Positions 46,199 to 64,000 of a DNA stretch of 64,000 bases are shown here, piece by piece. Below the pieces are notes generated by a model. The model saw only the letters and a program-made list of their open reading frames with translations, was not told where the DNA came from and did no database searches. Source of the DNA: Lentisphaera marina (GTDB taxonomy: Bacteria; Verrucomicrobiota; Lentisphaeria; Lentisphaerales; Lentisphaeraceae); the NCBI RefSeq assembly GCF_028745505.1, contig NZ_JAQZZL010000002.1, forward strand, positions 1,488,001 through 1,552,000, in the 5' to 3' direction. Positions within the stretch are counted from its first letter, which is position 1; each line of letters starts with the position of its first letter. Both the position numbers and the translations under genes were made by a program.

Positions 46199-46225
46199 CA
46201 AATTGGGGGTGATTAAATTAATTAA

Positions 46226-46300: not shown

Positions 46301-46389
46301 TATTTTTTAATCCTTAAAATTGTTTAATTCACTATGAATTTCTTTACTCATAAAACCCAAACAGATGATTATCAAGTCTGTTTTTATTT

Positions 46390-46397
46390 TTTTATGA
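46390..46397. repeat. IS256 target-site duplication, left
   Basis: TTTTATGA; the same 8 bases occur directly after the other end at 47792-47799. Confidence 0.92.
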
Positions 46398-47791
46398 GAT
46401 AGAGTCCCGTTGTTTCTGTAAATTGGTGTTGACCAATTTTAGTTAAACAGACAGATAAACTCTTTTTGTAGCTATCCAGGTTTCATCTAATTCCATAAGA
46501 ATAGCGGACGCTAATCTAAGCAGTGAAGCTTCATTTGGGAAAATAGACACGGTTCTAGTTCGCCTTAGAATTTCTCGATTCTGTCTTTCAATCATATTGG
46601 TGGTTCTCAGTTTTGTCCAACAAGAACGATCTAAATCAAATACAGAAAAGCCTTCAGGAAGTGCGGATTCCATCCATTCAGATAATTGAGAAGCACTGTT
46701 TTCATACTTTAAGCAAGTAAGCTTTAAAAGTCTTTCGGCGTCCTGTTTTGAAGGGGTATTAAAGATATCTCGAATGTCTTGTGCAACTTCTGAACGCATC
46801 GCTTTCTTAGGCACATAAGCCCCCGCATTCTGCTGTAAATGAAATTGACACCTCTGCCATGGGATTGACCCAAAGACAGTTGTTAAAGCGGCTTTCAGTC
46901 CCGAATGACTGTCGCTCGTGATCATCTTAAGACCATGAAGTCCTCGAGCATTCAATGATAGGAAAAAGTTTCTCCAATGAACCTCAGCTTCACTTAAAGA
47001 GACACTTGTACCTAAAACTGAGCGTTTTCCTGATTCATCTATCCCATAAGCAATTAACAAAGCACAATCTCGAACAGTCTTATCTACTCTAACTTTTTCG
47101 TATCTCGCATCCACCAAAAGGTAATGATATTTCCCTAAAGGACGGTTACGCCACTTTTCTAAGCTTTCATCTAGCTCAGATACAACTCGTGACACCTGTG
47201 ATTTACTCACGGAAAGACCACACATTTTCTCTAGAAGTTTCGTGACTTTTCTTGTCGAAGTTCCCTGAATATAACTCTCGGCCATAGCTGTCATCAAAGC
47301 TCGCTCACTTCGTAAGCCTTTTTCTAAAGAACTTGGATAAAAATCGATTTCACCTCTGACTTGAGGAATGTTGAGCTTCATTGCTCCAAGTCGAGTGTTT
47401 ACGGTTTTGTTTTTATAGCCATTAGCATAACCTAAGCGATTTTCATTGCGTTCATATGGAGCAGCATCAAGAGAATTACTTCTCTCTACTTTCATCGCTT
47501 CATTTAGTAATACTCTCATAGCTTCAAGCATTCCGCTTTCGCCGTTTTCTGTGACTTGGTGGATCATTTCTAATAAGACACTACTGTTCTCGTGTGTAGA
47601 GTGGTGCATAATAATTCCTTGTGGGTTGTTTTGGTGCAACACCACTCTGCATCTTCTTTACCCCGAGTTACAAACAACTTCCTCAATTTCGCTCCGACGA
47701 GAAAGTTCCCATTCTCGCGAAGTCTCGGAAGCTATTCATAACTCTTAAAGTAGAGCTATAGCAGAATTTACAGAAAATTTGGGACACTACC
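46398..47791 (-). mobile_element. IS256-family insertion sequence
   Basis: Bounded by imperfect inverted repeats starting GATAGAGTCCC (left) and, on the complement, GGTAGTGTCCC (right), both containing TTTCTGTAAATT. Flanked by an exact 8-bp duplication TTTTATGA, the size expected for IS256. The intact transposase and clean duplication suggest a recent insertion. Confidence 0.95.
46443..47609 (-). CDS. IS256-family (mutator-type) transposase
   Basis: A 388-aa transposase: N-terminal RLGYANGYKNKTVNTRLGAMKLNIPQVR, TRKVTKLLEKMCGLSVSKSQVSRV, LLVDARYEKVR (first Asp), GLKMITSDSHSGLKAAL (second Asp), WQRCQFHLQQN, and the C-terminal Glu region WTKLRTTNMIERQNREILRRTR. ATG 47609 is chosen because AAGGA lies just upstream; the frame start at 47645 lacks one. 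Confidence 0.94.
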   Translation of the reverse strand: MHHSTHENSSVLLEMIHQVTENGESGMLEAMRVLLNEAMKVERSNSLDAAPYERNENRLGYANGYKNKTVNTRLGAMKLNIPQVRGEIDFYPSSLEKGLRSERALMTAMAESYIQGTSTRKVTKLLEKMCGLSVSKSQVSRVVSELDESLEKWRNRPLGKYHYLLVDARYEKVRVDKTVRDCALLIAYGIDESGKRSVLGTSVSLSEAEVHWRNFFLSLNARGLHGLKMITSDSHSGLKAALTTVFGSIPWQRCQFHLQQNAGAYVPKKAMRSEVAQDIRDIFNTPSKQDAERLLKLTCLKYENSASQLSEWMESALPEGFSVFDLDRSCWTKLRTTNMIERQNREILRRTRTVSIFPNEASLLRLASAILMELDETWIATKRVYLSV

Positions 47792-48078: not shown

Positions 48079-50061
48079 TTATTTAACCACATACTTCCCT
48101 GGCTTAGCCATGAATTTGAGCGGTGAATTTTTTTCACTTTTCACTAGAACTTCCCTGCCCCTTTCTATACGATAAACCTGTACGTTAGGTGGCAAATCAA
48201 AGTCCAATTTCATAGCATGCTCTTTATGAAAAGTGAATTTATTGGAGAGCTGACGGCGGTATTTACTCATGTTGGAGTAATACTCCTTATTGCTGGAATA
48301 TGGCGGGTCATCATTCTTGGGTGCCTGACCATTTTCATTCAGCATTTTTCCTCCTGTAACCGGAGAGCGAACCCACTCAGTATCAGGCATAATTTCTATA
48401 GTTACTTCATCTTTATTTGAGCGATCAATAAAATAAAGTCCACTACCATAATATTTTACTAGTGGAGAACTTCCTAAACCAATAATTTCATCAAAGCCCC
48501 TAGCTACTTTTTGCGAAGTCAGCAAATGTTTTGTGTATGAATCTGGCATATCCCCTGAATAAATAAGGCTTTCATCATCTGCGTAAGCAGAAGTAAGGTG
48601 CTTAAAATCCAAAGCGGTATTTTTGAAATAATCAGCATCCTCAGCACTAGTCGTAAATTGCTGATAAAGAGGCGTATCTCTAAAAATTTTACCAGCGGCA
48701 ATAAAAGAAGCAGACTTAGCAGGCGTCCCTTTAAGACTCAGCATGTGTTGTGCGGCAGCATAGTTGATAAGTCTTGGTGGAATATAAGTCCACATTGTCG
48801 CAATTTGAGCCCCCTGAGCACGGAAGTATTTTGCCATAGCAGGGTACATGTAAGACGTCATTGTCGCATGAAGCTCCCATTCATATATGAAATGAGCTTT
48901 TTTGCGGAATTCGCTACTGTTAGCCCAGCCCTGATGAATTAGGCTATTATAAGCTTCGTTGAGATAGGGTAGTGAGTTAGTCACTTTATCCATTTTTCTC
49001 AGGTCTTTCTTTGGGTCGTGAACGTATTGATAAACCACACTCTGAGTTGGATAGGTAGAAAAACTCACTGAAGGAATTTTTGACGACAAACTCGCTTGCC
49101 ATTCAGCGTCACTGCCCGCATGCTTCATAGCCTGAACCCATTTATGCGACCAACCTACTGGAGTCTTACAGCCTATGCCCTCGATGAAATTACACATACT
49201 ATCCAGGTAACCTTTCACCATATCGCGACGCCATAGCTGGAAGTTTTTATCGTTATTTTTCTTACCCTGCTTTTTCAACCACTTGGTGTAAACCTTATGA
49301 TATTTTGTGTCGGGCTTATCTTCATGAGGTGTTTCCGGCTCATTTACCAACTCAATCAGACAAAAAGCCGGGTCGTCGATCATGCGCACACCATCGAACT
49401 GATTTTTTTTGATCAGCATATTTTTGATGTAGTTTTGTGAGCGTTTAATAAAATCTTGATCACTGAACCACTCAGTTTGTTCAAGCAAACCACCATCTCG
49501 ATCTTCCAAAAGGGTTCCCCAAGCATTTTTTTTAGTAGCTCCGAGGTGATTTAAAAAAGCAAAATAATAATAGAGCTTACGCTTACGACATTCAGCCATG
49601 AGGTATTCGAGAATCTTAAGATTATCCGACTGCTTCAATGAGCCATCAAAATTCGCTAGTTCATGAGGTGAAAGATGCACACGAACCACGTCGCAACCGA
49701 GCTTTTCAATTTCATCTAAACCTTCATCAATAATGCGATAATATTTTGGTGAATCAAATTCATTCCAATCGAGGATTCCTGCTTTAACAAAGCGATTCAT
49801 ACAGTAATTGAGCGAGACCTGATAATTCACTCCCCAAAGACTAACATCACTGCCATCTTCATAGACGAAACGACCATTTTTCACATAAATTCTTTGAAGT
49901 TCTTTTTCCTTAGGGACTTCTTTTACAACTTTCTGAGTTTTCTTTTCAGTAAGTTCCTGAGTTTTCTTTTCGATAGTTTTTGTGGACTGTGGAAGCTTAA
50001 TCCTCTGCTCACAGGATGTAAATATAAATAAACTAAGAAAACTAAAAACAAGTAATTTCAT
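48079..50061 (-). CDS. GH5-like glycoside hydrolase, lipoprotein
   Basis: A 660-aa probable surface or periplasmic polysaccharide hydrolase. The N-terminus ends in a lipobox (IFTSC, Cys17), followed by a charged linker (about 20-55) and a TIM-barrel enzyme beginning NGRFVYEDGSDVSLWGVNYQ. LVNEPETPHED (NEP at 240-242) is the acid/base motif of the GH5/clan A fold, and the later FIYEWELHA is a candidate nucleophile strand. A beta-rich C-terminal domain follows. It is paralogous to the gene at 51741-53402. A 158-base gap separates it from the sulfatase upstream, so it may have an extra promoter. Confidence 0.75.
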   Translation of the reverse strand: MKLLVFSFLSLFIFTSCEQRIKLPQSTKTIEKKTQELTEKKTQKVVKEVPKEKELQRIYVKNGRFVYEDGSDVSLWGVNYQVSLNYCMNRFVKAGILDWNEFDSPKYYRIIDEGLDEIEKLGCDVVRVHLSPHELANFDGSLKQSDNLKILEYLMAECRKRKLYYYFAFLNHLGATKKNAWGTLLEDRDGGLLEQTEWFSDQDFIKRSQNYIKNMLIKKNQFDGVRMIDDPAFCLIELVNEPETPHEDKPDTKYHKVYTKWLKKQGKKNNDKNFQLWRRDMVKGYLDSMCNFIEGIGCKTPVGWSHKWVQAMKHAGSDAEWQASLSSKIPSVSFSTYPTQSVVYQYVHDPKKDLRKMDKVTNSLPYLNEAYNSLIHQGWANSSEFRKKAHFIYEWELHATMTSYMYPAMAKYFRAQGAQIATMWTYIPPRLINYAAAQHMLSLKGTPAKSASFIAAGKIFRDTPLYQQFTTSAEDADYFKNTALDFKHLTSAYADDESLIYSGDMPDSYTKHLLTSQKVARGFDEIIGLGSSPLVKYYGSGLYFIDRSNKDEVTIEIMPDTEWVRSPVTGGKMLNENGQAPKNDDPPYSSNKEYYSNMSKYRRQLSNKFTFHKEHAMKLDFDLPPNVQVYRIERGREVLVKSEKNSPLKFMAKPGKYVVK

Positions 50062-50219: not shown

Positions 50220-51731
50220 TTATTCAGTAAATTCTCCGAAAGGGCGACCAATACTTTTCACGTAAGTAGAGAGCTGCTTTTGGAGCTGACGCATCTTTTT
50301 GGTGTACTCAGGATTTCTAGCTAAGTTACGCTCTTCCTTGGAGTCCTTGCGAAGGTCATATAGCTGATCTGGATCAACTATTCCACCGATATTATCGCGC
50401 GGTTGACCAAAGGGGTTTTTCTCCCAAAGAATTTTAAACGTACCCTTCTTCAAGTGCTCAGGAATAGTTCCACTTTGCGGAGGTATAAAACCGCGTTTAA
50501 GTGATTCTTTATTATAGCGAATAGCAATATATTTAAAGTCTTTGGTAATTACTCCTTTCGCAAAACCACTTTCAATGAGTATCGCCGATTTAAGCTCATC
50601 TGTTTCACCTCTCCAAACTGGCTGAATACTCATACCATCAATGATGGCGCCCTCAACTGGTTCAGCATTTGCGATATCTAAAAATGTCGCCGCCATATCA
50701 GTCACATCCACGAGCGTATCATTCTGAGTTTTAGCTTCGATAGCTTCTGGCCAACGGGCAATGAAAGGTATATTCGCACCTCTTTCGTAAGGTGATGCCT
50801 TTCCGTGATTTTGCTGATCGGAAAGGAAAATAATCAAGGTATTATCCATCTTGCCCTGAGCTTCTAACTTATCTAAAATAACGCCAACGCCGGCATCCAT
50901 CCAAGTAACCATTTCCTTCACCACATTGCGCCATTTAGCCGACTTATCGATAAACTTGCTGCGATCAGGCATAAGGCCAAAATGCTTCTCAGTGTAGCCC
51001 TGGGGAGTCATTCCCAAGCCAGCTGAATCAATGGGTTCGTGGGGGCCGTGAGCCACAGTAAAAGCCGTCCATAAAAAGAAAGGTTTTCCCTCTGGAACTT
51101 GATCAAGAAAATCCACTGCACCTTTGACTGTGTATTCCACATTATGGTGCTCTAAAGCCTTAGGGAAATGATCTAAATTACCGTCAGTGATGTACTCCGC
51201 ATAATCAAAACCGTACACATCTAGACGGCGGCGCAATTCATCCTGAACGGCTTTGAGCATCGCAATTACCTGAGGATCTTTTGGGTCGGCATCCTTGGGT
51301 ATTTTTTTCATCAAAGCTGCAAATTCTTTATCCAAGTCATTATGCCATTTCCCTGTAGCACCAGTGAAGTAACCGGCTTTTCGAAGAGCCTGAACCACCG
51401 TGCGATCCGTTTCACAAAAGGAGGAGCCATTGCGAATAGATGCATGACGAGTGAGGGGTCCATAAATCCAGTTTTTGCAGCGACTGGCGTAAGAGGCCGT
51501 CAAACAACTGTATCGTGCAGGCACACAGAGCGTCGCAGTGGTGTAAGCACGGTTGTGAACCACACCCTCGTTAGCTAGGCGATCGATATTTGGTGTTGAG
51601 TACTTACTGCCATACGCGCCAATACTATCTTTATTTTGATCATCGGTTATGAGAACCAAAATGTTTGGACGAGTATCCTCTGCCGTAAGACCTAGTACAA
51701 AAAGAAAAACAAATGCGGTAAATAACTTCAT
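50220..51731 (-). CDS. secreted sulfatase with CVPAR site
   Basis: A 503-aa S1 sulfatase: signal peptide to about residue 17, ITDDQNKDSIGAYG, formylglycine site CVPARYSCLTA (Cys69), ATGKWHND, FLSDQQNHGKASPYERGANIPFIARWP and C-terminal QLYDLRKDSKEERNLARNPEYT. The second Cys four residues after the site is unusual beside the consensus. Lies 9 bases downstream of the cytosolic GH5-like gene in the operon that starts with the sulfatase at 55242. Confidence 0.92.
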   Translation of the reverse strand: MKLFTAFVFLFVLGLTAEDTRPNILVLITDDQNKDSIGAYGSKYSTPNIDRLANEGVVHNRAYTTATLCVPARYSCLTASYASRCKNWIYGPLTRHASIRNGSSFCETDRTVVQALRKAGYFTGATGKWHNDLDKEFAALMKKIPKDADPKDPQVIAMLKAVQDELRRRLDVYGFDYAEYITDGNLDHFPKALEHHNVEYTVKGAVDFLDQVPEGKPFFLWTAFTVAHGPHEPIDSAGLGMTPQGYTEKHFGLMPDRSKFIDKSAKWRNVVKEMVTWMDAGVGVILDKLEAQGKMDNTLIIFLSDQQNHGKASPYERGANIPFIARWPEAIEAKTQNDTLVDVTDMAATFLDIANAEPVEGAIIDGMSIQPVWRGETDELKSAILIESGFAKGVITKDFKYIAIRYNKESLKRGFIPPQSGTIPEHLKKGTFKILWEKNPFGQPRDNIGGIVDPDQLYDLRKDSKEERNLARNPEYTKKMRQLQKQLSTYVKSIGRPFGEFTE

Positions 51732-51740: not shown

Positions 51741-53402
51741 CTAAAAATTGATTGAGTAAGTTCCTGGAGCAGCGTTAAACCTTATGGGGTTACGTCCAGG
51801 TAATTTGAGTTCAAAAGGAAATTCAGTTTGATAATCCAGCTCCGTTACAATTCCTCCATCGGTGTGCCATTCACAGGGATTGCGGACGAATTCTGCATGA
51901 GGGTAAATTTCTATGTCTACTGATTCTTCATTAACATCGATAAAATAAAGCCCCCCACCCTCATAATTAACAAGTGGTGATGAACCAAAACCAATAATTT
52001 CTCTTAAGTCCTCTGATGGTAAGATCCCACACCAATCATTGTTACCAACACTAGCATAAACCCCACCGCGACTCATGAGACAGGAATCTGTTTCTCTCGA
52101 AAGAGCAAAACCACTAAAGCAGTCATCTTTGTCGCTGAAAATCTCAAAATTTGATCCACGATCCAGAGTTCTAAACACATTGCCGGCAATCATATAACTC
52201 AAAGCTTTTTTAGGTGTAGTCTTGAGATTAAGAACGTGGGAGCCACCTAAATACTGAGCATAAATATTAAAAGTATGAGTCCAACACATGGCCATTTGAA
52301 CACCTAAAGAACGAAAGAGTTTTGCAATGGCTGGATGTAAGTAAGCACTCTTGGGGTTATACATGGTTTCAAACTCATAAACAACTTTTGCTTTGTTCGC
52401 AAATTGCGGACTTCGCAACCAGCCTAAGTGATCAAAATCTTCATAACAAAATTTGAGGAAAGGCAAGTAATTACGATCGCTCATATCCGCGGGGTGTTCC
52501 ACAAAGGGAGCTGCCACATCATCCTGACCAGGGTATAGACAAAATGCCAATGCATCAGCTTTTGAATCTGCGATCCCCGCAAAAACATCTTTTCTTGAAT
52601 CGATCATTCTCGGCCAATTACAGTTCCAAATTACTGGCTGCTGAGCGCCCTCCGATCTGAGTAAATCGTGGAGTCCGTCGATGTAATCTCGAACGACTTC
52701 GCGACGGTATTTGGCATAGTAAACATCGTTGAAAGGAAAATCATTATTTTGGAGCCAGTCAAAGAAAAGTTTCTTTTGCTTAACACTTTCATTCATTTGC
52801 TGAAAAGTCATGTACTCGGGTTCATTAATCAGACCCCAAACAGCGACAACAGGATCGTCTTTAAGCTTGATCCCAGTATAGGGATTTTCATAATTGATTA
52901 ATTGACGAACCATATTGTGAGTACACTCAACGATTTCCGGATCAAAGATCCACTCTTCTCTTGTTGAATTAGCCACGAAGGATTCTTTAATTAATGTAAA
53001 ATCCATGTGATTGATAAAAGTCAGATAAACATAAACACCGTTTTCCCGTGCCTTGGCAATGGTGTAGGCCAACATATCCAACCACATATTGTGAACAAGG
53101 TTGCCTTTAGCATCAGAAAAATCTGCCGGGGTTAAATGACAACGGATAACGTCGCTAGCCATTTTTTTCATATCGGCAAAGCCATCGTCACACATATCCT
53201 GCATGACCTCCAAAGTCATGGGAATACCTGCATGCTCCATGCGAAATTTATATTCCCAATAAAGATTTGGCTGAAAGTTATGCCCCCAAAGAGTTACCTC
53301 ATCACCATTTTCGTAGCGAAGAACCCCCTCCTCTACTTTCATGAACATGAAGTCTTTTTGAAAATTTTTCAGGAACTCGTCCTCAATCATCACTGCTTCC
53401 AT
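51741..53402 (-). CDS. GH5-like glycoside hydrolase, no signal peptide
   Basis: A 553-aa paralogue of the lipoprotein at 48079-50061: EGVLRYENGDEVTLWGHNFQPNLYWEYKF, LINEPEYMTF (NEP at 193-195), VVYEFETMYNPKSAYLHPAIAKLF and a similar C-terminal region with EIIGFGSSPLVNYEGGGLYFID. It lacks any visible signal peptide, so it may act on imported oligosaccharides in the cytoplasm, or be misannotated at its start, though no better upstream start exists within the operon spacing. One base separates it from the upstream sulfatase stop; AAAGGGG is its ribosome site. Confidence 0.75.
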   Translation of the reverse strand: MEAVMIEDEFLKNFQKDFMFMKVEEGVLRYENGDEVTLWGHNFQPNLYWEYKFRMEHAGIPMTLEVMQDMCDDGFADMKKMASDVIRCHLTPADFSDAKGNLVHNMWLDMLAYTIAKARENGVYVYLTFINHMDFTLIKESFVANSTREEWIFDPEIVECTHNMVRQLINYENPYTGIKLKDDPVVAVWGLINEPEYMTFQQMNESVKQKKLFFDWLQNNDFPFNDVYYAKYRREVVRDYIDGLHDLLRSEGAQQPVIWNCNWPRMIDSRKDVFAGIADSKADALAFCLYPGQDDVAAPFVEHPADMSDRNYLPFLKFCYEDFDHLGWLRSPQFANKAKVVYEFETMYNPKSAYLHPAIAKLFRSLGVQMAMCWTHTFNIYAQYLGGSHVLNLKTTPKKALSYMIAGNVFRTLDRGSNFEIFSDKDDCFSGFALSRETDSCLMSRGGVYASVGNNDWCGILPSEDLREIIGFGSSPLVNYEGGGLYFIDVNEESVDIEIYPHAEFVRNPCEWHTDGGIVTELDYQTEFPFELKLPGRNPIRFNAAPGTYSINF

Positions 53403-53403: not shown

Positions 53404-55242
53404 TTACTGCCCCTTTTTAGTGATATTCAGACTCCAGAAAGACATTTTCTTAAGTGCTTTTTTATCGTCAACGGCTAGAAGTTTAAAGCTCAAATCCTGA
53501 ACACCTTTACTGAGATCTAAAACACCTAAGTCATGAAACTTGCCCTTACCGAGTTCAAAAGTCTTATTGACACCTTTGCCATTGAGTTGGAACTGAGTTC
53601 CATCGGGAGCATCTGTTGCACGAAGCATAACTTTGTATTTTCCTGCAGTGCGCACATCAACTTTCAAAACTTGCTCAGCACCAATTTCACCAAAGAAAGT
53701 ATTAGCCCAGCTCACGCGGTTTTTACCTTTGGTTTTATACATACTTTCGATTTCTACATAAGAAGTTTTTTGATCTGGAAAACCAATGACCTGAACAGGT
53801 GCCGTGTAGGCATGAGCATCATTTAAAATTTCCTGCTTCTTAAGCTCATAACGCTCTTTCATCACTGCAAATTTTTCCGGCATGGATTTCTTAAGGTTTT
53901 TGACCTGACGGGGATCTTTAGCTAAGTTGAATAAGCCCCAGCTACCATTGTCATTCACCACAACCCAGTCACCGCTATAATAAGCACTGCAACGCTGATT
54001 AAATGGTAGTGTATTTTTTGTAAAGCGATGATCGTAGCCGTCTTCACCTGGAGTCGATTGCGGTGAACCAGTTTCTGCACAAAAGTACTCACGCTCAGGC
54101 CATTTCGATTTAGCATCTTTTAAAAGTGGTAAGAGACTTTTTCCGCTGAGTTTTGGTGCAGATGATTTTGCTGACAAACCTGCCATATCCAGGAGCGTTG
54201 GGTAGATGTCCATAACCAAGGAGAAATCATTGCTCACACGCCCTTTAAATTTTGCCGGCCAATACACTGAGAGACGATTACGAACGCCATTTTCCCAGGC
54301 AGTTGCTTTCTTAGATCTTAATCCAGAGGGGTTACGTTGCTTCCATTCCTCTTCATTTAAGTCATAAAATTTACCATTCTGCCAATAACCATGCTCATCT
54401 TCACGGAGTAAACGCGTGGTTGGAGTTGGACCGTTATCACCAAGGTAAAGAATTACTGTGTTATCGGAAATCCCTTCATCTTCAACGGCCTGCATAACAC
54501 GGCCAACCTGGCTATCGAGATGCTCCATCATGCCCATGAACATGGCGTAGCTCTCGCCCAAACCTTTGTCTAAATACTTATGATGATATTCTTTAGGACA
54601 GATCCACGGCTCATGGGGCTGCGCATAAGGAAGATAGAGAAAAAATGGCGCCTGCTTATTTTCTTTAATAAATTTGATAGCCTTATCAGTAACAATTTCA
54701 GCCTGCCAGCCCTTTTCACGACCTGCATATTTACCGTTGTGGAAAAATGGCGGATTAAAATGCTCGTAACGGCCATAGCTACGAATATCTTGGCGAACCA
54801 CCGGCCAAGCTTCATCAAATCCGCGACGAGAAGGGAGGTCAGCATCTGCCAAGCCCAGGTTCCATTTACCCATCATGCCAGTTTTATAACCGCCATCTCT
54901 TAGGGCTTCACTCAAATAATACTCATTTAGATGGGGACTTTCTGCACCAAAACCCACTGATGCAGTACTAACGCGCATAAAATCACGACCCGTCATCAAA
55001 GCTGCACGAGTTGGCGCACAAGCTGGTGCCGTATAGAAATTATCGAAACGCACGCCCTCTTGAGCCAACTTATCCATAAATGGCGTTTCAAGTTTATCCT
55101 GAACAAAGCCGTAATCGTCGTAACCTTGATCATCGGTGAGAATTAAAATGATGTTGGGGCGCTGATCCGCCGCAGACATGGCAAGAGCCGCCGTAAAAAC
55201 AAAAGCTGTACCGAGCTTAATGAGCATATTTTTAAAATTCAT
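53404..55242 (-). CDS. secreted sulfatase with C-terminal carbohydrate-binding-like domain
   Basis: A 612-aa S1 sulfatase: signal peptide (to about residue 25), LTDDQGYDDYGF, formylglycine site CAPTRAALMTG (Cys75), GKWNLG, LYLGDNGPTPTTR. After the usual sulfatase C-terminus (about residue 480) comes an extra region of about 120 residues (YVEIESMYKTKGKNRVSWANTF ... DLSFKLLAVDDKK) that looks like a beta-sandwich binding module. ATG 55242 is chosen because AAGGGAAG precedes it and the signal peptide starts there. First gene of the operon; an AAATG-N5-CATTT site lies about 85 bases upstream. Confidence 0.9.
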   Translation of the reverse strand: MNFKNMLIKLGTAFVFTAALAMSAADQRPNIILILTDDQGYDDYGFVQDKLETPFMDKLAQEGVRFDNFYTAPACAPTRAALMTGRDFMRVSTASVGFGAESPHLNEYYLSEALRDGGYKTGMMGKWNLGLADADLPSRRGFDEAWPVVRQDIRSYGRYEHFNPPFFHNGKYAGREKGWQAEIVTDKAIKFIKENKQAPFFLYLPYAQPHEPWICPKEYHHKYLDKGLGESYAMFMGMMEHLDSQVGRVMQAVEDEGISDNTVILYLGDNGPTPTTRLLREDEHGYWQNGKFYDLNEEEWKQRNPSGLRSKKATAWENGVRNRLSVYWPAKFKGRVSNDFSLVMDIYPTLLDMAGLSAKSSAPKLSGKSLLPLLKDAKSKWPEREYFCAETGSPQSTPGEDGYDHRFTKNTLPFNQRCSAYYSGDWVVVNDNGSWGLFNLAKDPRQVKNLKKSMPEKFAVMKERYELKKQEILNDAHAYTAPVQVIGFPDQKTSYVEIESMYKTKGKNRVSWANTFFGEIGAEQVLKVDVRTAGKYKVMLRATDAPDGTQFQLNGKGVNKTFELGKGKFHDLGVLDLSKGVQDLSFKLLAVDDKKALKKMSFWSLNITKKGQ

Positions 55243-55326
55243 ATTCTTCCCTTTTGCTAAAATCATAAATCTATATAAACCCAAAACTTAGCCGCTTCAA
55301 GTTTTAAATGATTAATTTTTTAAATT

Positions 55327-55341
55327 AAATGTTAAACATTT
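55327..55341 (-). promoter_or_regulatory. candidate GntR operator 1
   Basis: AAATGTTAAACATTT, perfect AAATG/CATTT arms. A half-site-like AAATGATTAATTTTT is 20 bases away (55306-55320). Upstream of the sulfatase-GH5-sulfatase operon. Confidence 0.55.
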
Positions 55342-55388
55342 GTTATTTTCACAGAAAAAAGCAGAGTTTCACCCCCTGCTCTATTCTA

Positions 55389-56954
55389 TTACTTAAATTG
55401 CTTTGACTGTGTAAAGGCCATGTGTTCTTTGTGAAGCTTAGCCATTTTCTTCAAAATACCTGAATACTCCGAATTATCAGCCAGATTAGCTTTCTCTTCC
55501 GGATCTTTATCGTAATCATAGAGCTCCACATGCTCAGGGTTCTTCACGTACATATTACCTTTCGTAGCCTTATTTCTCCAGCCTTTGTACCAGGCGGTGT
55601 AACGGTAACGCTTGGTGCGAATTGTAATTCCCCAGCGCTTATCGTGAGTATAAATACTAGCTGCATATTCCTGCACGTCTTTCGAGCTATCTTTTAAAAC
55701 CGGAACCAAGCTTTTACCATCAAGATTTACAGGCGTTTTAATTCCACTTAATTCACACACAGTTGGGAAAATATCGATGAGGTTCGCAGGCGTATTAGTC
55801 TTCTTTCCACATGGTAAACCTGCATTGGCGATAATTAAAGGTGTACGCGTTGCCTGTTCGTAATTGGTGTGTTTCGTCCACAGACCTTTATCACCGAGGT
55901 GAAAACCGTGATCCCCCCAAAAGACGATAACTGTATTTTTGTCCAAACCCGTTTCTTTTAATTTTTTCATGACTTTTCCAATCTGGGCATCCACATAAGA
56001 AACACAAGCCAGGTATCCATGGAGAAGTTCACGTTGAGTTGCTTCGTCAATTTTGCCTTTTGCCGGCACGCCGCCGTAACCACGAGCTTCAACATATTCT
56101 GTTTCAGCACATTTCGGCGCACCTTTAGGGTAAGACTGGTACTCCGCTAAGGGTAAGCTTGAACGGTCATATAAATCCCAATATTTTTTAGGCGCCACAA
56201 AAGGTAAATGAGGCTTTAAAAAGCCAAGAGCAAGAAAAAAAGGTTTATCTGAATTCTTTAGTTTCTCGAGTTGTTCTATGCCGCGATTAGCCACTCCGCC
56301 ATCTTTGTAGGCATCATCGGGAACATCATAGCTTTCAACGGCAGGGCCGGCGCCATGCTCGCGCATGTAAAAACGCAAGGGTTTACCTTTTAGACCTTTA
56401 GCCTTCCCCTCTTTTTCAACTTGTTTCCCAAGTTTTATAATTTCTGGATTGTGGTAATGTCCCGCTTTTGGTGGACCTGTTTTTTTATTGTAGGGATTAG
56501 TTCCAAAAAACTCAGTCCAGGAAATTTTATCCTGTGGACCATGCCAATCATCTTCCACATTGCGAGGATCAAAAATCTTACCTGTTCCTAAGGTGATGTA
56601 GCCCTGATTTTTAAAGTGAAGAGGCAAGGTCAGTATATCCGGGTACCATTCGCGAAGAACAAATTTACCAGCTGCCATTCCGTAAATTCCAGTGGTATCC
56701 GGATAGTATCCTGTGAGTAAACTAATTCGAGAAGGCCCGCAGACAGCTTGCTGACAATGAGCATTCAGAAAGGCTGTGCCCGACTGGGCTAATTTATCTA
56801 TATTGGGCGAGATTGCGTAATCGTAACCATAACAATTCAAAATGGGCTTAAGGTCATCTACGGCGATAAACAAAACATTCTTTGGCTTTGCGGAAGCCGC
56901 AAAACACATACCAAAGAATACACTCAGAGAAACTAATTTTTTTAATATCATCAT
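55389..56954 (-). CDS. secreted iduronate-2-sulfatase-like sulfatase 1
   Basis: A 521-aa S1 sulfatase: signal peptide (to about residue 22), AVDDLKPILNCYG, formylglycine site CGPSRISLLTGYYPDTTG (Cys72), FFLALGFLKPHLPFVAPKKYWDLYDR and FWGDHGFHLGDKGLWTKHTNYEQATRTPLI. The KPHLPF...LYD and HLGDKGLWTKHTN blocks are those of iduronate-2-sulfatase relatives. It follows its tandem paralogue by 6 bases. Confidence 0.92.
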   Translation of the reverse strand: MMILKKLVSLSVFFGMCFAASAKPKNVLFIAVDDLKPILNCYGYDYAISPNIDKLAQSGTAFLNAHCQQAVCGPSRISLLTGYYPDTTGIYGMAAGKFVLREWYPDILTLPLHFKNQGYITLGTGKIFDPRNVEDDWHGPQDKISWTEFFGTNPYNKKTGPPKAGHYHNPEIIKLGKQVEKEGKAKGLKGKPLRFYMREHGAGPAVESYDVPDDAYKDGGVANRGIEQLEKLKNSDKPFFLALGFLKPHLPFVAPKKYWDLYDRSSLPLAEYQSYPKGAPKCAETEYVEARGYGGVPAKGKIDEATQRELLHGYLACVSYVDAQIGKVMKKLKETGLDKNTVIVFWGDHGFHLGDKGLWTKHTNYEQATRTPLIIANAGLPCGKKTNTPANLIDIFPTVCELSGIKTPVNLDGKSLVPVLKDSSKDVQEYAASIYTHDKRWGITIRTKRYRYTAWYKGWRNKATKGNMYVKNPEHVELYDYDKDPEEKANLADNSEYSGILKKMAKLHKEHMAFTQSKQFK

Positions 56955-56960
56955 GACTCC

Positions 56961-58472
56961 CTACTTTTTATTCTTTTTAGAGTGCGGGCCAAACGCAGCT
57001 TCTTTGCCCCATGGTACAAAAGGTGGTGCAACAGGATTATTGGAATTGTTCACAATACCTTTTGGTAACGCTGCTTTCCAACCTGCTTTAAGTTGCTTTT
57101 TAAGTTCAGCTACTACCGATTTATACTCCGGTGTGTTGGCTACATTGCGCGATTCTATGGCATCGTTTTTATGATCATAAAGTTCATGGCTTTTGAATGA
57201 TCCATCCAGTTCGCGCCACTCAATGTAATGATAACGATCCGTTCTGATGGAAAAGCCCTCAAATTTTGCCTTCGGATAACCGCGTGGATACTGGCTAAAT
57301 GCAGCAGACTTCCACTCTCTTTGCGGATTCCGCAAAAGCGGTTTTACGCTATTACCTTCCAAGTACTGGGGTACTTTAATTCCAGCAAGATCACAAAGAG
57401 TTGGGTAAACGTCAACATACTCAACTAAGGCCTTTGTTTTAGTACCTTGCGTATAACCAGGAGTCGATACAATCATTGGTGCGCGATTTGAGTTCTCAAA
57501 ATTCGTAGATTTACCCCAGTGATTTTGGTCACCTAAATGCCAGCCGTGATCAGAAATAAAAGCAATGATAGTCTTTTCCTTTAAGCCTAAACGCTCAAGT
57601 TCAGCCATAACAATACCAATCTGAGCATCGATGTAAGACACGCAAGCAAAGTAAGCATGCTTCATTTTGCGGGCATATTCATCGTCACCCACTATGCGAC
57701 CATTGCTTGGCTTGGGAATATTATATTTTTGTAAATTCGCCCAATCACGAGCGTACTTTGGAGCATCAATTGGCAAATCTTTGACTTCTGCTAAATCTAT
57801 TTTTTCACGATCATATAGATCCCAGTATTTTTTGGGTGCATTCCAGGGTAAATGAGGCTTCCAATAACCTAGAGCAAGGAAAAATGGCTTATCCTGTTTG
57901 GCCATTCTACGGAGTGTTTTCAAAGCCTCTAAGGTATTTTGACCATCGTCATAAGCATCATCTTCCACATCCTCACATTCATAAGGGGGAAGCTCGCTTT
58001 TTTTCTTCCCTTTGGCAAAATTGACATACTTAGTTCCCCAGCCGGCACTCACAGATTTTTCAGTGAAATCCTCGTTATATACGTGGTGAATTTTTCCAAC
58101 TGAACGAACGTAATAACCCTCATTCATAAAATGACGCATGACTGATGGGCGATTACCCTCCAAAAGCTCTTCAACCGTGTAGATTGAATAAGGATAATCA
58201 GAACCAGTGCTATCCGGTCTTAAACCAGTTAAAAAGCTGGCTCGCGATGCAGTACAAACCGGCTGCTGAACATAGGCACGCTCAAACAAAACCCCCTGCT
58301 CAGCGAGTTTATCAATATTCGGACTATGAATATACTCAGCACCATAGCAGTTCAGTTCAGGTCGCAGATCATCGACAACAATAAATAATACATTCTTTGG
58401 CTTCGCTTGAACAAAACTCAGTGCGAGAACCGCAAGAAATAAAAAGGCTCTTCCAGGGGATAACACAGTCAT
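56961..58472 (-). CDS. secreted iduronate-2-sulfatase-like sulfatase 2
   Basis: A 503-aa S1 sulfatase and tandem paralogue of the next gene: signal peptide (to about residue 23), VVDDLRPELNCYGAEY, formylglycine site PVCTASRASFLTGLRPDSTG (Cys73, C-x-A-x-R form), FFLALGYWKPHLPWNAPKKY and ISDHGWHLGDQNHWGKSTNFENSNRAPM. It ends in a short basic tail (HSKKNKK). First gene of a two-sulfatase unit with an AAATG-N5-CATTT site about 80 bases upstream. Confidence 0.92.
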   Translation of the reverse strand: MTVLSPGRAFLFLAVLALSFVQAKPKNVLFIVVDDLRPELNCYGAEYIHSPNIDKLAEQGVLFERAYVQQPVCTASRASFLTGLRPDSTGSDYPYSIYTVEELLEGNRPSVMRHFMNEGYYVRSVGKIHHVYNEDFTEKSVSAGWGTKYVNFAKGKKKSELPPYECEDVEDDAYDDGQNTLEALKTLRRMAKQDKPFFLALGYWKPHLPWNAPKKYWDLYDREKIDLAEVKDLPIDAPKYARDWANLQKYNIPKPSNGRIVGDDEYARKMKHAYFACVSYIDAQIGIVMAELERLGLKEKTIIAFISDHGWHLGDQNHWGKSTNFENSNRAPMIVSTPGYTQGTKTKALVEYVDVYPTLCDLAGIKVPQYLEGNSVKPLLRNPQREWKSAAFSQYPRGYPKAKFEGFSIRTDRYHYIEWRELDGSFKSHELYDHKNDAIESRNVANTPEYKSVVAELKKQLKAGWKAALPKGIVNNSNNPVAPPFVPWGKEAAFGPHSKKNKK

Positions 58473-58551
58473 TCATTAATCTCTTTTTTAAAATTCACAG
58501 ATAAAACTAAACGTTCACGGAGAAAATATCAAATGGTTATCTTAATATTTT

Positions 58552-58566
58552 AAATGATCAACATTT
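58552..58566 (-). promoter_or_regulatory. candidate GntR operator 2
   Basis: AAATGATCAACATTT, perfect arms. Lies between the small secreted-protein gene (stop at 58583) and the sulfatase start at 58472. Confidence 0.55.
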
Positions 58567-58582
58567 TAAATCTCCAAAAAAA

Positions 58583-59176
58583 TTAGATACTTGCCTCGAG
58601 CTCAGCCTTCTTAATATTTTCTTTTTTGGGTGCACGGCACTTGAAGCTAATCGTCACTTTTGTTCCTTCTTTAACTTCAATCCACTGCTGAACCCATTTA
58701 CTATTGCCGCCTGCAATAATATAATGCTCACCATTCGCCGCATCTCCTTTGATTAATTGATTGGAGTTAAATTTCCACCAACCTTCCGAAACTCCACTAT
58801 TCTTTAATTGCTCAAAATCGCCATTTACTATATCTGAGCCGCTTATTTTTAGGTCATCATATTCGATCCAGTTCACCTTCCCCGATTTCTCATGATGACG
58901 TCCAGTGATTTTCAGACGCACTTTCCCTGCCTTTGATGCACGAAAGCTAAATTGCATTTCCTGCCATTTTTTCTCAGGCTCTTCAACACTCCTAAAAATC
59001 ACCTTATTTTTTATGGCTTTATCATAATAATGATAGTCCATACCTTCACCAGGCTGAATCTTTACAAAATCAATTTCTTCCTTATCTCCGTAAAGGGTTA
59101 TAACTGCCCTAGGGAAGTCTTCAGCAAAGGCCTGCCCCATGAGCAAAAGCAATGCTGTGAATAATAATTTTTTCAT
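58583..59176 (-). CDS. small secreted protein, beta-sandwich-like
   Basis: A 197-aa protein with a signal peptide (MKKLLFTALLLLMGQAFAED). The middle, MQFSFRASKAGKVRLKITGRHHEKSGKVNWIEYDDLKISGSDIVNGDFEQ, resembles carbohydrate-binding-module-type beta sandwiches (CBM4/9-like), but no catalytic motif is seen. It may be a binding protein for the target polymer. It follows the regulator gene by 103 bases on the same strand and may be cotranscribed with it. Confidence 0.6.
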   Translation of the reverse strand: MKKLLFTALLLLMGQAFAEDFPRAVITLYGDKEEIDFVKIQPGEGMDYHYYDKAIKNKVIFRSVEEPEKKWQEMQFSFRASKAGKVRLKITGRHHEKSGKVNWIEYDDLKISGSDIVNGDFEQLKNSGVSEGWWKFNSNQLIKGDAANGEHYIIAGGNSKWVQQWIEVKEGTKVTISFKCRAPKKENIKKAELEASI

Positions 59177-59279
59177 TATTTCCTCTTTTCATTACGCATT
59201 AATTTTAGGAATAGACAAAACCATTCCTTTTAAAAACAGTTGTTATTTAAATCAGAGCCAGGCTCTGTGCAATGCAGAA

Positions 59280-60383
59280 TTAGTATTCTTTGATCTTAAC
59301 CGGAATACATTTTTCCACAGTTTTTGTCGGATCTTTTTCAAGATCTGACAAGAAGACTTGAACAGCCTGACGCCCCATTTCTTCAATATCCTGTTCCACA
59401 GAATATTTAACATTTGGAACAGATTCAATACTCTCAAAATCAAAAGTCGCCACAGGAAGTGATGCCAGTTTTTCAGTAGACTCATTGGGATAAAGTTTAC
59501 AGAAATCATTCATACCCTCGAGCATACTGCTATCATTTACAAAGAGTGCATCTGCCTCCAGGCGACGTGCTGCATAAAGACCTGCACATTCATTGCCCAC
59601 ATCTTCCAAGTAACTTAATGAATTACTGCATAAGATGTAGCGCTCATCAAATTCAAGACCATTTTTCTCGATAGCCGCCTTAAAGCCTTCGAGACGCTGC
59701 TTTCTTGCGAGAGTATTGAGATAGCCCCCCATGAAAGCAACTTTCTTAGCTCCATCATCTATCAGTTTCTGAGTTAGGTCAAAAGCCGCTTGGAAGTCAT
59801 CAATATCGACCTTGTGAATTCCCTCACGACTTTCCAAGCTGGAACCGGCCCAAACGCTTGGACATTTCAGGTCATCTAAGAAATCGATCAATTGATTATG
59901 AGTCGACATAAAGGGATCAATAACTAGAGCACCTTCACATTTCACGGCATTAAATAAATCGCGAATTCTATTAAAGTTCTTACCCACTTCCTCTTCTTCA
60001 TATTTGAAAGCGACATTCACTGTGGTGGCGTTGTTTAAAAGCGCCTCTGCATGAACCGCATATAGAAGTCTGGAGAAATACCAATTGGAGCTCTTTTCCC
60101 ATGATGGCCAAGGTGAGATTACCAATATCAATCTAGTGTTGCTAGAAGGAGGCTTACGAGTAACCACTGTTCCATAACCAGCGCGACGATTGATGTAGCC
60201 TTCTTTTTTTAGCCAGGCCAAAGCTTTTGAAACAGTAAGACGGTTTATTCCAAGGTCTTCTGCAATGGACTTTTCAGTAGGAAGAAGGTCCCCCTCATCA
60301 TACTTATCGGAACTTATCATTTCCCAGATATGATTGTAGGCAATCTCTTCTTTACGAGCAGGTTTTGACTTTTCTTCAGACAT
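59280..60383 (-). CDS. GntR-family regulator with LacI-type sensor domain
   Basis: A 367-aa regulator: N-terminal GntR winged helix (about 10-78: IAYNHIWEMISSDKYDEGDLLPTEKSIAEDLGINRLTVSKALAWLKKEGYINRRAGYGTVV), then a periplasmic-binding-protein-like sugar sensor (about 85-365), as in AraR-type repressors. It probably senses a sugar released by the surrounding enzymes. An AAATG-N5-CATTT palindrome 34 bases upstream of its own start and the same site before three sulfatase units suggest autoregulation and local control. Confidence 0.88.
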   Translation of the reverse strand: MSEEKSKPARKEEIAYNHIWEMISSDKYDEGDLLPTEKSIAEDLGINRLTVSKALAWLKKEGYINRRAGYGTVVTRKPPSSNTRLILVISPWPSWEKSSNWYFSRLLYAVHAEALLNNATTVNVAFKYEEEEVGKNFNRIRDLFNAVKCEGALVIDPFMSTHNQLIDFLDDLKCPSVWAGSSLESREGIHKVDIDDFQAAFDLTQKLIDDGAKKVAFMGGYLNTLARKQRLEGFKAAIEKNGLEFDERYILCSNSLSYLEDVGNECAGLYAARRLEADALFVNDSSMLEGMNDFCKLYPNESTEKLASLPVATFDFESIESVPNVKYSVEQDIEEMGRQAVQVFLSDLEKDPTKTVEKCIPVKIKEY

Positions 60384-60416
60384 AATTGTTTACTTTTTAA
60401 AATTAATCACGACTTA

Positions 60417-60431
60417 AAATGATTAACATTT
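60417..60431 (-). promoter_or_regulatory. candidate GntR operator 3 (autoregulatory)
   Basis: AAATGATTAACATTT, perfect arms, 34 bases 5' of the regulator start. Confidence 0.6.
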
Positions 60432-60457
60432 AGTTAATTACAAGGCTTTGAATTCAA

Positions 60458-62032
60458 TCACTGACCGAATTCACCGAAAGTGTGAGGCAAGCCTTTAACG
60501 AACTTGGATAATTCACCTTTTAGCGTTTCTAGAACTGGGCGATATTCAGGATTATTGATAAGGTTTTTCATTTCGTAAACATCTGCTTTTAGATTGTAGA
60601 GCTGATCGGAATCCCAGTAATGCTTATACATGCGTTCATTGCCGTAGTTGTGGTGATCCACACCAGTCCAAAAAACTTTCTTGGGGTTCGCTTTCATTTT
60701 CTTTTCAATCTCAGGCGTCACACGATTAACCAGTAATTTCCAATCTTTACTGAACACAGCTTTAGTGTTTCCAGCTTCAACAAACATATACTTGCGCCAG
60801 TCGGCAGGCTCACCATTGCCCGTTAACTGAGGTACAATACTCTTACTGTCCTGAGCCATATCTGCAGCTAACGTTCCACCTGCAACCTCGACTAAAGTTG
60901 CAGCCATGTCAATGTTACCGCAAAGGGTATCATGTCTTGTCCCTGGAGCTATTTTGCCAGGCCAAACGGCTATGAGTGGAACTTTTGAACCACCTTCATA
61001 GCAGCTGTTTTTTCCTCTTCCTCCGTGATCACTAGTGAAAATAACAAGCGTATTGTCTAGTAGATCATTTTTCTTTAATGCATCCATTACCGCACCCACG
61101 TAATCATCCATACGAGTTGCCATGGCATTTTGATCCGGCACACCTGCTGCTCTGGTTCGTTTGAACACATCTTCAACTTTAGGCAGGAAGTAAAGTGGCT
61201 CATCCAAAAGACCGTCGGAGGTTACACGTTGATTGTAGGTAGTGATATCATTATAATCAAAGTAATATTGACCGTGGGGAACAGGAAGTGAGCAGTATAG
61301 AAAAAAGGGCTGATCTTTACTCTCATTAATAAATTTTACAGCTCCTTCACACTGCCAGTCGAGGTTTACAATCGAGTTACCCCACTCCATTCTATCGACT
61401 ACGTCCCAACCAAAACCGTTGCTTAAATAATCAATTCCGGCTTGGTAATATTTCTTGATTGCTTTCTCAGATTTCTTAGTTTGCTCAAGGGTGGCATTTG
61501 GAGCATGATCTGCCTTTTTGCGCTTAGGCAGATCATTCCTTTTCATATTGTGCCACTTACCAATAATTCCCGTACGGTAGCCCTGCTTTTTCAATTCTTT
61601 AGGCAAGCTGGTCTCAGTATTGAGGATTGCTGGGCGCCACTCTAAAGTAGCATGAGTCCCCGCTGGATAATCATCTTGAAGCTCTATACCTCGAGTAGCG
61701 TAACGACCGGTGAGAAGACAGTAACGACTGGAACTACAAACGGTGGCATTTACGTAAAAGCGAGTCAAAATCATCCCTTCATCAGCAAGCTTGTCGATGT
61801 GAGGGGTTAATACCTTGGGAACTCCAGCTTTGTGACCTACACCATGAACTCTTTTCACACCACTGGGAGATGGCCAAATATCTACATCATTCATTGTGCA
61901 GTTGATCTCATCTGCATCCAGATCATCCGCATAAATAAAAACAATATTTGGCTTCTTATTTTCTGCATGAATACTAAATATTCCACTCAGCATAAATGCA
62001 ACTAGCGCAAAAGAGCTCATTAACTTGGTCAT
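60458..62032 (-). CDS. secreted sulfatase with atypical CSSSR site
   Basis: A 524-aa S1 sulfatase: signal peptide (to about residue 23), IYADDLDADEINC, site VCSSSRYCLLTGRYATRG (Cys99), IGKWHNMKRNDLP, FTSDHGGRGKNSCYEGGSKVPLIAVWP and QLYNLKADVYEMKNLI. The formylglycine motif reads C-S-S-S-R, with Ser in place of the usual Pro or Ala. A long insert precedes the site (about residues 45-75). ATG 62032 is chosen because the signal peptide begins there and AGGA precedes it; the longer frame adds a non-hydrophobic leader. Confidence 0.9.
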   Translation of the reverse strand: MTKLMSSFALVAFMLSGIFSIHAENKKPNIVFIYADDLDADEINCTMNDVDIWPSPSGVKRVHGVGHKAGVPKVLTPHIDKLADEGMILTRFYVNATVCSSSRYCLLTGRYATRGIELQDDYPAGTHATLEWRPAILNTETSLPKELKKQGYRTGIIGKWHNMKRNDLPKRKKADHAPNATLEQTKKSEKAIKKYYQAGIDYLSNGFGWDVVDRMEWGNSIVNLDWQCEGAVKFINESKDQPFFLYCSLPVPHGQYYFDYNDITTYNQRVTSDGLLDEPLYFLPKVEDVFKRTRAAGVPDQNAMATRMDDYVGAVMDALKKNDLLDNTLVIFTSDHGGRGKNSCYEGGSKVPLIAVWPGKIAPGTRHDTLCGNIDMAATLVEVAGGTLAADMAQDSKSIVPQLTGNGEPADWRKYMFVEAGNTKAVFSKDWKLLVNRVTPEIEKKMKANPKKVFWTGVDHHNYGNERMYKHYWDSDQLYNLKADVYEMKNLINNPEYRPVLETLKGELSKFVKGLPHTFGEFGQ

Positions 62033-62134
62033 AGGGGCATTCCTTAGTTTAATTTTCACGTCAAATTTCCGTATAATATGGCCTTGATGACGAAATATCA
62101 ATCGTTTTTGGTGAAATAATTATCATTATTTATT

Positions 62135-62149
62135 AAATGTTAATCATTT
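62135..62149 (-). promoter_or_regulatory. candidate GntR operator 4
   Basis: AAATGTTAATCATTT, exact reverse complement of operator 3, about 100 bases upstream of the CSSSR sulfatase. Confidence 0.6.
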
Positions 62150-62309: not shown

Positions 62310-62366
62310 AAAAAAGCGAGCTACAGAAATATGTATGTGGTGTCATTGACATATTCCTGTAGCTCG
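62310..62366 (-). terminator. terminator of the deacetylase-nagB transcript
   Basis: CGAGCTACAGAAATATGT (62317-62334) pairs with ACATATTCCTGTAGCTCG (62349-62366), 17 of 18 pairs, loop 14 bases. On the minus strand a run of seven T follows. It lies about 50 bases past the nagB stop. The rest of 62150-62413 has no gene that I can support. Confidence 0.85.
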
Positions 62367-62413
62367 TAAAACATGGCCTAGGGGGAAACCATTATTTTCC
62401 TAAACACACTAAC

Positions 62414-63199
62414 TTAGTGATAGACTTGCCACTCGGGTTCATTTTCGAATATACGATAATAATACTCTTTACCTTCGAGTTCTTCGGCTGCATCTTCATC
62501 GCAGATGATGACACAGTTGGGGTGCAATTGTAATGCCGATGCAGAAATCATAGAAGTGATCGGACCTTCAACTGCTTTGGCTAAAATTGAAGCTTTGGAT
62601 TTACCCGTCGCTAAAAGAATAATTTTCTTAGCATCAAGAATGGTGCCAACGCCCATAGTAAGAGCGCGCTTGGGCATTTCTTTTGGATCATCGAATAAAG
62701 GCCCATTTTGTTCAAGAGTAATGGGTGCTAAAGCTTTTTCTCGTGTACGGGAAGCCAAAGAGGACAAGGGCTCATTAAAGCCAATATGACCCGTATTACC
62801 AATACCCAAGAGTTGAATATCTATTCCACCTTTATCAGTAATTTTTTCTTCGTATTCCTTACACGCTTCAGCGAGATCGGCTGCCACACCATTTGGCAAA
62901 TAAGTCTCTTCTAGGTCAATATTAATTTTATTGAATAGTAAGTCGTTCATGTAATACCGATAAGACTGATTATGATCTGGAGCTAAGCCCACGTACTCGT
63001 CGAGATTGAATGTTGAACAGCGCGAGAAACTAACTTCACCTTGATCGTAACGTTGGACTATATTGGCATACAAATTTTCCATTGTACGCCCCGTTGCTAG
63101 ACCTAGAACACTATCTTTTTTATCTTGAACGGCATGGCAAATCAGACGAGCCGTGAGGTCAATGGCCGCGGCGGCATCTTTTTGAATTATAACTTCCAT
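62414..63199 (-). CDS. nagB: glucosamine-6-phosphate deaminase
   Basis: Converts glucosamine-6-phosphate to fructose-6-phosphate and ammonia, the last step of amino-sugar catabolism. 261 aa with LGLATGRTMENLY (substrate loop), STFNLDEYVGL (Asp67), LGIGNTGHIGFNEP (His138, Glu143) and ALTMGVGTILDAKKIILLATG. Length and motifs match NagB, not 6-phosphogluconolactonase. It lies 8 bases after the PIG-L deacetylase gene and near the sulfatase locus, suggesting that GlcNAc-containing material is used. Confidence 0.95.
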   Translation of the reverse strand: MEVIIQKDAAAAIDLTARLICHAVQDKKDSVLGLATGRTMENLYANIVQRYDQGEVSFSRCSTFNLDEYVGLAPDHNQSYRYYMNDLLFNKINIDLEETYLPNGVAADLAEACKEYEEKITDKGGIDIQLLGIGNTGHIGFNEPLSSLASRTREKALAPITLEQNGPLFDDPKEMPKRALTMGVGTILDAKKIILLATGKSKASILAKAVEGPITSMISASALQLHPNCVIICDEDAAEELEGKEYYYRIFENEPEWQVYH

Positions 63200-63207
63200 A
63201 TCGACTC

Positions 63208-64000
63208 CTAAGATAAGTTATCTAATTTACTGGTGACATCATTTTGAAAACGCTCAATGGTCGCTTTTACGTAGTCACTAATTGACAAATTCTCATCTTC
63301 AATCAAAGGACTTAAGTCCATGGCAAAATTCATTGAATCGCAAGCATCCACTTCATGAGAGGCAAAGTATGTCGCATTGGCAACTCGACGACCAACAGTC
63401 GCTAAATCATAACGTTTTCCTCCACTTACTTGAGAGTCAAAAACTGCAATGAGGGCCTGTGCAATATGAGGGTACTGATCTGTGGGAAGAACGACTTTTT
63501 CATCGTCCATCATCCAGTCCAAGTCACGCCAAACCTCACAGCCATAAACTTTCTTGGGGCGTTGCTCTTTTGGGAGTGAACGAACGGCCTCAATAGAGCG
63601 CAACATCGTCGCCACATGCGTATCGTGCTTGTCTGCTGGATTGTGTAAATACAGAACTTCGGGCTGTGCGACTTGAAGAATAGCCCGAAGTTCTGCCACA
63701 GTGTTTTTGTTCTGTGAATCTTTGATTTCCGAACTCGGGTACGCCAACTGAACTTGGACTGCGAAATCTCCAAGTGAAGCCGCTTTATTCTGCTCGTCAC
63801 GGCGAATCGCCTGCATCTCTTCATCTGAGTACTCGGCGTAAATCCCAGTACGTGGACTTCCTGAACCATTTGATAAAATAACGCTACTGAAATTGAGATC
63901 TTTTTGACCAAAACATTGTGCAATACCATTATATGCTAAAATCTCGGTATCGTCCTGGTGAGCGACAATCGCTAAATGAGTCGTACTTGAGAGTGCTGCC
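63208..64000 (-). CDS. PIG-L/LmbE-family deacetylase (5' end outside window)
   Basis: The frame is open from the window edge to 63208, about 264 codons, and lacks its first residues. The visible N-terminal part has STTHLAIVAHQDDTEILAYNGI, where AHQDD is the zinc motif of PIG-L/LmbE-type N-acetylglucosamine deacetylases (usual form HxDD). Further on, LYLHNPADKHDTHVATMLRSIEAV supplies the second His region. Directly upstream of nagB, it could deacetylate a GlcNAc derivative to feed NagB, a role usually filled by NagA. Internal ATG 63816 is not the start. Confidence 0.85.
   Translation of the reverse strand, partial: AALSSTTHLAIVAHQDDTEILAYNGIAQCFGQKDLNFSSVILSNGSGSPRTGIYAEYSDEEMQAIRRDEQNKAASLGDFAVQVQLAYPSSEIKDSQNKNTVAELRAILQVAQPEVLYLHNPADKHDTHVATMLRSIEAVRSLPKEQRPKKVYGCEVWRDLDWMMDDEKVVLPTDQYPHIAQALIAVFDSQVSGGKRYDLATVGRRVANATYFASHEVDACDSMNFAMDLSPLIEDENLSISDYVKATIERFQNDVTSKLDNLS

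Follow-up and report, generated by a model that had tools for sequence, protein, structure and literature searches.

A candidate AraR-like regulon of sulfatase and glycosidase genes at two loci of Lentisphaera marina

What does a GntR/LacI-type regulator encoded among the sulfatase genes of Lentisphaera marina control, and through which sites? The locus lies in a stretch of 64,000 nucleotides (the window, C2:1488001-1552000 of a 5.3 Mb genome in three contigs). The palindrome AAATG-N5-CATTT occurs there four times as an exact match, at 55327, 58552, 60417, and 62135, and is absent from the rest of the window. An earlier note on this DNA proposed that the regulator binds these palindromes and controls the sulfatases and its own gene. 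Comparative evidence supports that proposal, with binding itself read from sequence. The regulon appears larger than the note proposed, extending to a second chromosomal locus with genes for GH42, a GPH transporter, a GH5-like hydrolase, GH109, and nagA.

Palindromes and genes of the two loci

The four palindromes each lie in an intergenic gap and, as the note had it, precede three sulfatase units and the regulator gene, all on the minus strand. Their distances to the likely ATG are 86, 79, 33, and 103 bp for S626, S503, the regulator, and S547, respectively, within the 30-105 bp claimed. The predicted primary operator of sulfatase S547 (62135..62149, an exact match like the other three) is the one 103 bp 5' of an ATG; the S547 frame spans 60458..62101 with a likely ATG at 62031. 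The predicted operator of the regulator gene (60417..60431) is 33 bp 5' of that gene (59280..60383), whose 367-aa product joins a GntR winged helix at residues 15-74 to an effector domain of the LacI/GalR type. A 197-aa secreted-type protein with a weak CBM_4_9 match is encoded 3' of it (58583..59176). The third predicted operator (58552..58566) precedes a sulfatase operon headed by S503 (56961..58472), with S521 (55389..56954) following 6 bp past it. The fourth (55327..55341) precedes a unit led by S626 (53404..55284, likely ATG 55240), which includes GHx553 (51741..53402) and the sulfatase S503b (50220..51731). GHx660 (48079..50061), a second GH5-like hydrolase, lies beyond a 158-bp gap, and its membership of the S626 unit is uncertain. 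All these features are on the minus strand.

Five proteins of the locus are S1 sulfatases of the formylglycine type, each combining a PF00884 match with a Cys-type (C-x-P/S/A-x-R-like) active site. The motifs, read off the translations, are CSSSR (S547), CTASR (S503), CGPSR (S521), CAPTR (S626), and CVPAR (S503b). The GHx proteins are three paralogs of 550-660 aa without a Pfam match, encoded at 51741-53402 and 48079-50061 of the window and at L021:14270-16054. Their AlphaFold model (pLDDT 76) finds its best fold matches in GH5 mannanases (TMt 0.75 and E 2e-14 for 8gf3) and GH164. With a TIM barrel, an invariant N193-E194-P195 as expected around the acid/base Glu, and an invariant E343 as candidate nucleophile, they look like hydrolases of clan GH-A, an assignment made at the level of the clan and not of a family. 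In Opitutae they are again found alongside the regulator, and they may form a new GH subfamily.

The surroundings of the locus were also inspected. Genes for a nagB-like deaminase, a PIG-L deacetylase, and a kinase-like protein lead into it on the minus strand (window 62414-63999 and L022:12415-15454). No operator of the AAATG-N5-CATTT type adjoins these three genes, and a hairpin with a T-run near 62310-62375 may terminate their operon. On the other flank, at 43348-47645, are genes for transposases that by eye resemble those of IS30, IS110, and IS256.

Base composition is a poor explanation of the palindromes, as the note had argued: dinucleotide shuffles contain 0.35 of them on average, and none of 100 shuffles reached four. 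The word is AT-rich and relaxed versions of it are common, as a coincidence of AT-rich intergenic DNA would have it. However, the probability of four palindromes in 6.8 kb is about 3e-8 (taking the 23 scattered sites of the genome as background), the control for the strict word gives no match, and the word recurs independently before orthologous genes of other classes. Coincidence is thereby refuted.

To scan the genome, exact and degenerate patterns were counted, with the reversed patterns as controls. The palindrome occurs 30 times, versus 10 for the control: four copies in the window locus, three in one 1.6-kb stretch (C2:784218-785851), and 23 scattered, most of those with inspected surroundings falling inside ORFs. 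The claim that the palindromes are confined to one 7-kb stretch is thus true of the window only; in the genome, the second cluster lies 758 kb away. The genome-wide scan that the note had suggested, carried out as these counts, divides in the same way: the strict word AAATGWTNAWCATTT is confined to the two loci, whereas the looser palindrome is mostly dispersed. All six copies of the strict word in 5.3 Mb are in the two loci, with about 0.7 expected and none for the control. The seventh clustered site, AAATGGTTAACATTT, is one position off. With two mismatches allowed the scan does not discriminate (762 matches versus 589 for the control). One scattered site, C1:1478318, was considered as a regulon member; it precedes a gene for a LamG-like protein and then a large planctomycete-type gene, and was not convincing.

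The second cluster consists of sites at C2:784218, 785757, and 785837 (L021:9219, 10758, and 10838). The first precedes genes for a TIM-barrel sugar isomerase and a 3-keto-disaccharide hydrolase, and is also 116 bp from a divergent prepilin-like gene and the sulfatase S517. The other two precede a GH42 beta-galactosidase gene, followed in its operon by genes for a GPH-type symporter, a GH5-like protein, a GH109-type oxidoreductase, and nagA. Here (L021:10758-10852) GH42 has a tandem pair upstream and a third exact operator, which ends 15 bp before the likely ATG; an alternative ATG further upstream would leave a gap of about 3 bp. Two transposases and a group II intron reverse transcriptase (L021:120-3230 and 5217-6563) flank this locus. 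A sulfatase search of the genome returned 393 first-look candidates. In a genome so rich in sulfatases, a position upstream of a sulfatase is by itself weak evidence; the strong evidence is recurrence before specific orthologs.

The regulator and the word in other genomes

The regulator matches PF00392 (8.7e-13), PF00532 (2.6e-9), and PF13377 (1e-6). Its winged helix scores 48.2 bits against a PF00392 gathering cut-off of 27, which places it in the GntR family, and the combination of this DNA-binding domain with PF00532 and PF13377, both above cut-off, is that of the AraR subfamily. The solved structures nearest to its effector domain are those of CcpA. It has no close paralog in its own genome, the next match being 25% identical, and no ortholog at E<=1e-20 in 59 relatives, two genomes of the same genus included. 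Among 388 genomes of the phylum there is one good ortholog (48%). A contig search with the single protein found no orthologs; a profile from a two-sequence alignment recovered them in the genome collection, at 45-62% identity and only in scattered Opitutae and Pontiellaceae. The MAG of an uncultured Opitutae member (G392) has the closest (62%), followed by three Opitutae/Puniceicoccaceae genomes (55-56%), Pontiellaceae B12227 (48%), and Pontiella sulfatireligans (47%). Every ortholog found in the collection scan adjoins sulfatase genes. S521 is 67% identical to a sulfatase next to the B12227 ortholog, and S503b is 60-74% identical to sulfatases adjoining regulator orthologs.

In G392 and in two Puniceicoccaceae-type genomes (G393 and G394), orthologs of these genes are preceded by the same word. 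G392 alone of the three also has it before the regulator gene itself, as AAATGGTAAACATTT; sites preceding orthologous regulator genes are those at L073:9902 (one mismatch) and L078:9972 (two mismatches). Further sites in G392 precede an 83%-identical S547 ortholog (C6:4888), an MFS symporter ortholog (70% identical), and three operons that encode GH5-like proteins and sulfatases, and one lies between divergent orthologs of GH42 (57%) and S517 (66%). Five of its six exact copies of AAATGNTNANCATTT are regulon sites, the sixth (C5:34901) being away from regulon genes; with one mismatch allowed there is no enrichment in G392 (32 versus 31 for the control). Before one GH5-like/sulfatase operon of G392 two exact operators are 148 bp, or about 14 helical turns, apart (L103:2218 and 2366), a spacing compatible with DNA looping. 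In Puniceicoccaceae AG-913-J04 (G394, 1.8 Mb), the sole exact copy of AAATGNTNANCATTT lies 67 bp before the S547-S503-S521 operon (C1:178254; S547 ortholog 67% identical), and the only exact copy in G393 is at the same place. A one-mismatch copy in G394 precedes the run GHx553-MFS-GHx594-S517-S626-...-S503b-regulator. This run joins orthologs of both L. marina loci (50-87% identity) and so provides an independent tie between them.

The word is less well kept in Pontiella. In 21 kb of P. sulfatireligans a single match with up to two mismatches, the degenerate AAATGGTGATCTTTT, starts 26 bp 5' of the ATG of the regulator. Repeats resembling ATTTGNTCACNCTTTG, two or three per locus and about 33 bp apart, are found at both Pontiella loci (L077:2087-2200 and L078:9700-9850), between the regulator and a divergent gene for a 621-aa secreted protein. 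These repeats are perhaps the diverged operator of Pontiella. In the 59 relatives that have no ortholog at E<=1e-20, the word occurs zero to two times per genome (0 and 1 in the same-genus genomes) and forms no clusters. Exact sites in seven genomes of the same family or class (G002, G004, G005, G012, G017, G048, and G049) were rejected as a regulon, there being neither cluster nor regulator; those inspected are in or near unrelated genes.

The recurrence of the word before the same orthologs in three regulator-carrying genomes, together with the lack of clusters in the 59 relatives without such an ortholog, supports the GntR/LacI-type protein as the binder. Might some other transcription factor, such as a global catabolite regulator, bind the palindromes, the GntR/LacI gene being merely one of its targets? 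Sites do precede not only the regulator gene but also genes at a great distance from it. However, the exact word is limited to these loci, hence not global; in multiple copies it accompanies the regulator ortholog in more than one class, and close relatives without that ortholog do not have it in this form; and it matches the GntR consensus. We consider such a factor improbable, and the encoded regulator very probably binds the palindromic word, as judged from these comparisons. The flanking transposases at both loci and the lack of the regulator in congeners suggest acquired modules. We give an even chance to a reading in which regulator, operators, and targets moved together, as a single regulatory module, from one class of marine PVC bacteria to another.

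Predicted operator arrangement and the sign of control

The consensus of 17 sites is AAATG[T/A]T.A[A/T]CATTT, with T at position 6 in nine and A at position 10 in 14. Because the pattern itself picked the sites, conservation of the fixed columns is in part circular, which does not apply to the variable ones. GntR operators have the form NyGT-Nx-ACNy (PMC4494728), and the consensus AAATGTTNAACATTT is of this form, a GT-N3-AC core in AT-rich flanks; read as AAAT-GT-TNA-AC-ATTT, it has the spacing of the FadR group. A weaker copy is found 21 bp gene-proximal to the operator at S547 (TAATGATAATTATTT, 62114..62128, 12/14 fixed positions), S503 (58531..58545, 10/14), and S626 (AAAAATTAATCATTT in minus-strand reading, 55306..55320, 12/14), all on the minus strand, as well as at GH42 and one G392 GHx operon. 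At the G392 symporter it is at 22 bp. The offset +21 is the best of 92 tested, its value being reached in one of 500 shuffles, and +42 is next. The regulator gene has no good second copy near its operator. Since 21 bp makes two helical turns, the spacing suggests dimers side by side on the same face of the helix.

The +21 copies could instead be promoter parts, TTAACA in the operator serving as -35 and AATCAT or AATTAT in the copy as -10. The pairs TTAACA-16-AATTAT (S547) and TTAACA-16-AATCAT (S626 and G392 GHx) score 9/12. But the good copies mostly keep a far half with TG, needless for a -10 box (TAATG at S547, AAATG at GH42, AAATG at G392 GHx5, and ATATG at G392 MFS), and +42 echoes as the second best offset. 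We regard this explanation of the copies as doubtful. In the arrangement we propose, the 15-bp palindromes would be operators of the regulator encoded among them, each taking one dimer, and a second dimer would probably occupy the weaker copy at several target promoters. The regulator would act on the gene that encodes it, on the sulfatase and GH5-like units of the window locus, and, at the second locus, on the genes for the sugar isomerase and 3-keto-disaccharide hydrolase, GH42, the GPH transporter, and the GH5-like hydrolase. GH109 and nagA are probably included. The signal is likely a sugar freed from a sulfated glycan. A single common glycan for all the enzymes was considered but not adopted; GH42, GH109, and nagA hint at galactose and N-acetylhexosamine, and the GH5-like enzymes at beta-mannose or glucose.

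The regulator may repress or activate its targets. The main alternative to repression, which we rate as a serious though lesser possibility, is that the same protein activates its targets through the same operators while repressing its own gene. Tandem sites would then lie upstream of the -35 box at the targets, and a single site over the core promoter of the regulator. The best promoter-like pair of S547, TTGATA-17-TATTAT, starts 33 bp past the primary site, as does TTGACA at GH42 and at the G392 GHx operon; the regulator's own site is merely 33 bp before the ATG, and that of the G392 regulator ends 20 bp before a TATAAT. However, promoter-like pairs overlap or abut the site at G392 MFS, G394 S547, and the isomerase, GH42 carries its extra exact site just 5' of the start codon, and AraR, the characterized GntR/LacI chimera, is a repressor. 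Scans for consensus promoters are at chance (28 found versus 29.2 expected), so the direction of control cannot be read from where the operators lie. We lean, by the family precedent of AraR, modestly towards repression relieved by sugar.

Relation to known systems

AraR of Bacillus subtilis binds cooperatively at paired in-phase boxes and has a single box at its own gene (PMC4218819). Like the regulator here, it combines a GntR winged helix with a sugar-binding domain of the LacI/GalR kind. The regulons share AT-flanked palindromic boxes and, as predicted here, autoregulation (PMC4218819). The layout in L. marina looks similar, with probable in-phase pairs at several target promoters and a single box at the regulator's own gene. 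The kinship is nevertheless weak. Against the ortholog profile, the DNA-binding domain of AraR reaches only E=0.009, the effector domain here is closer to CcpA, the AraR box is 16 bp as opposed to a 15-bp operator with a GT-N3-AC core, and AraR serves arabinose use whereas the targets here are sulfatases and GH5-like and GH42 enzymes. On the first three of these differences, orthology with B. subtilis AraR was rejected. NagR (YvoA) and DasR, the GntR-HutC regulators of GlcNAc use, have a related winged helix, and nagA is in the second locus, but their operator is of another form (PMC4494728). No HutC-type effector domain was matched in the regulator. The LacI-family local glycan regulators resemble it in the LacI/GalR-type effector domain and in the logic of a local regulon. 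Their DNA-binding domain differs from the GntR domain here, and LacI operators usually have a central CG, which is missing from this operator.

The gene content resembles the sulfatase-rich polysaccharide clusters of Lentisphaera, Pontiella, and Rhodopirellula, and S1-type sulfatase arrays with glycosidases are known from marine PVC bacteria (PMC6388578, PMC7356697). A literature search found no operator or regulon described for such PVC clusters, and the paper on Kiritimatiellales sulfatases has no word starting with "regulat".

The comparative data support the predicted sites, the gene set, the association of regulator and site, and the 21-bp phasing; physical binding, the ligand, and the direction of control are inferred. 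Support is good for a direct regulon of AraR-like type that includes autoregulation, and we hold with considerable confidence the model as a whole, that of an AraR-type chimera acting through these operators on both loci. Marine PVC bacteria have hundreds of sulfatase genes, with substrates mostly unknown. If the reading of a module that moved between classes is true, this module, split into distant loci, keeps its 15-bp word, so that the word alone would mark sulfatase-like genes that act together, singling out the few among hundreds that serve one glycan. An operator word that selects a small co-regulated set, with glycosidases, a transporter, and a sensor, would lead to a testable pathway for one sulfated glycan.
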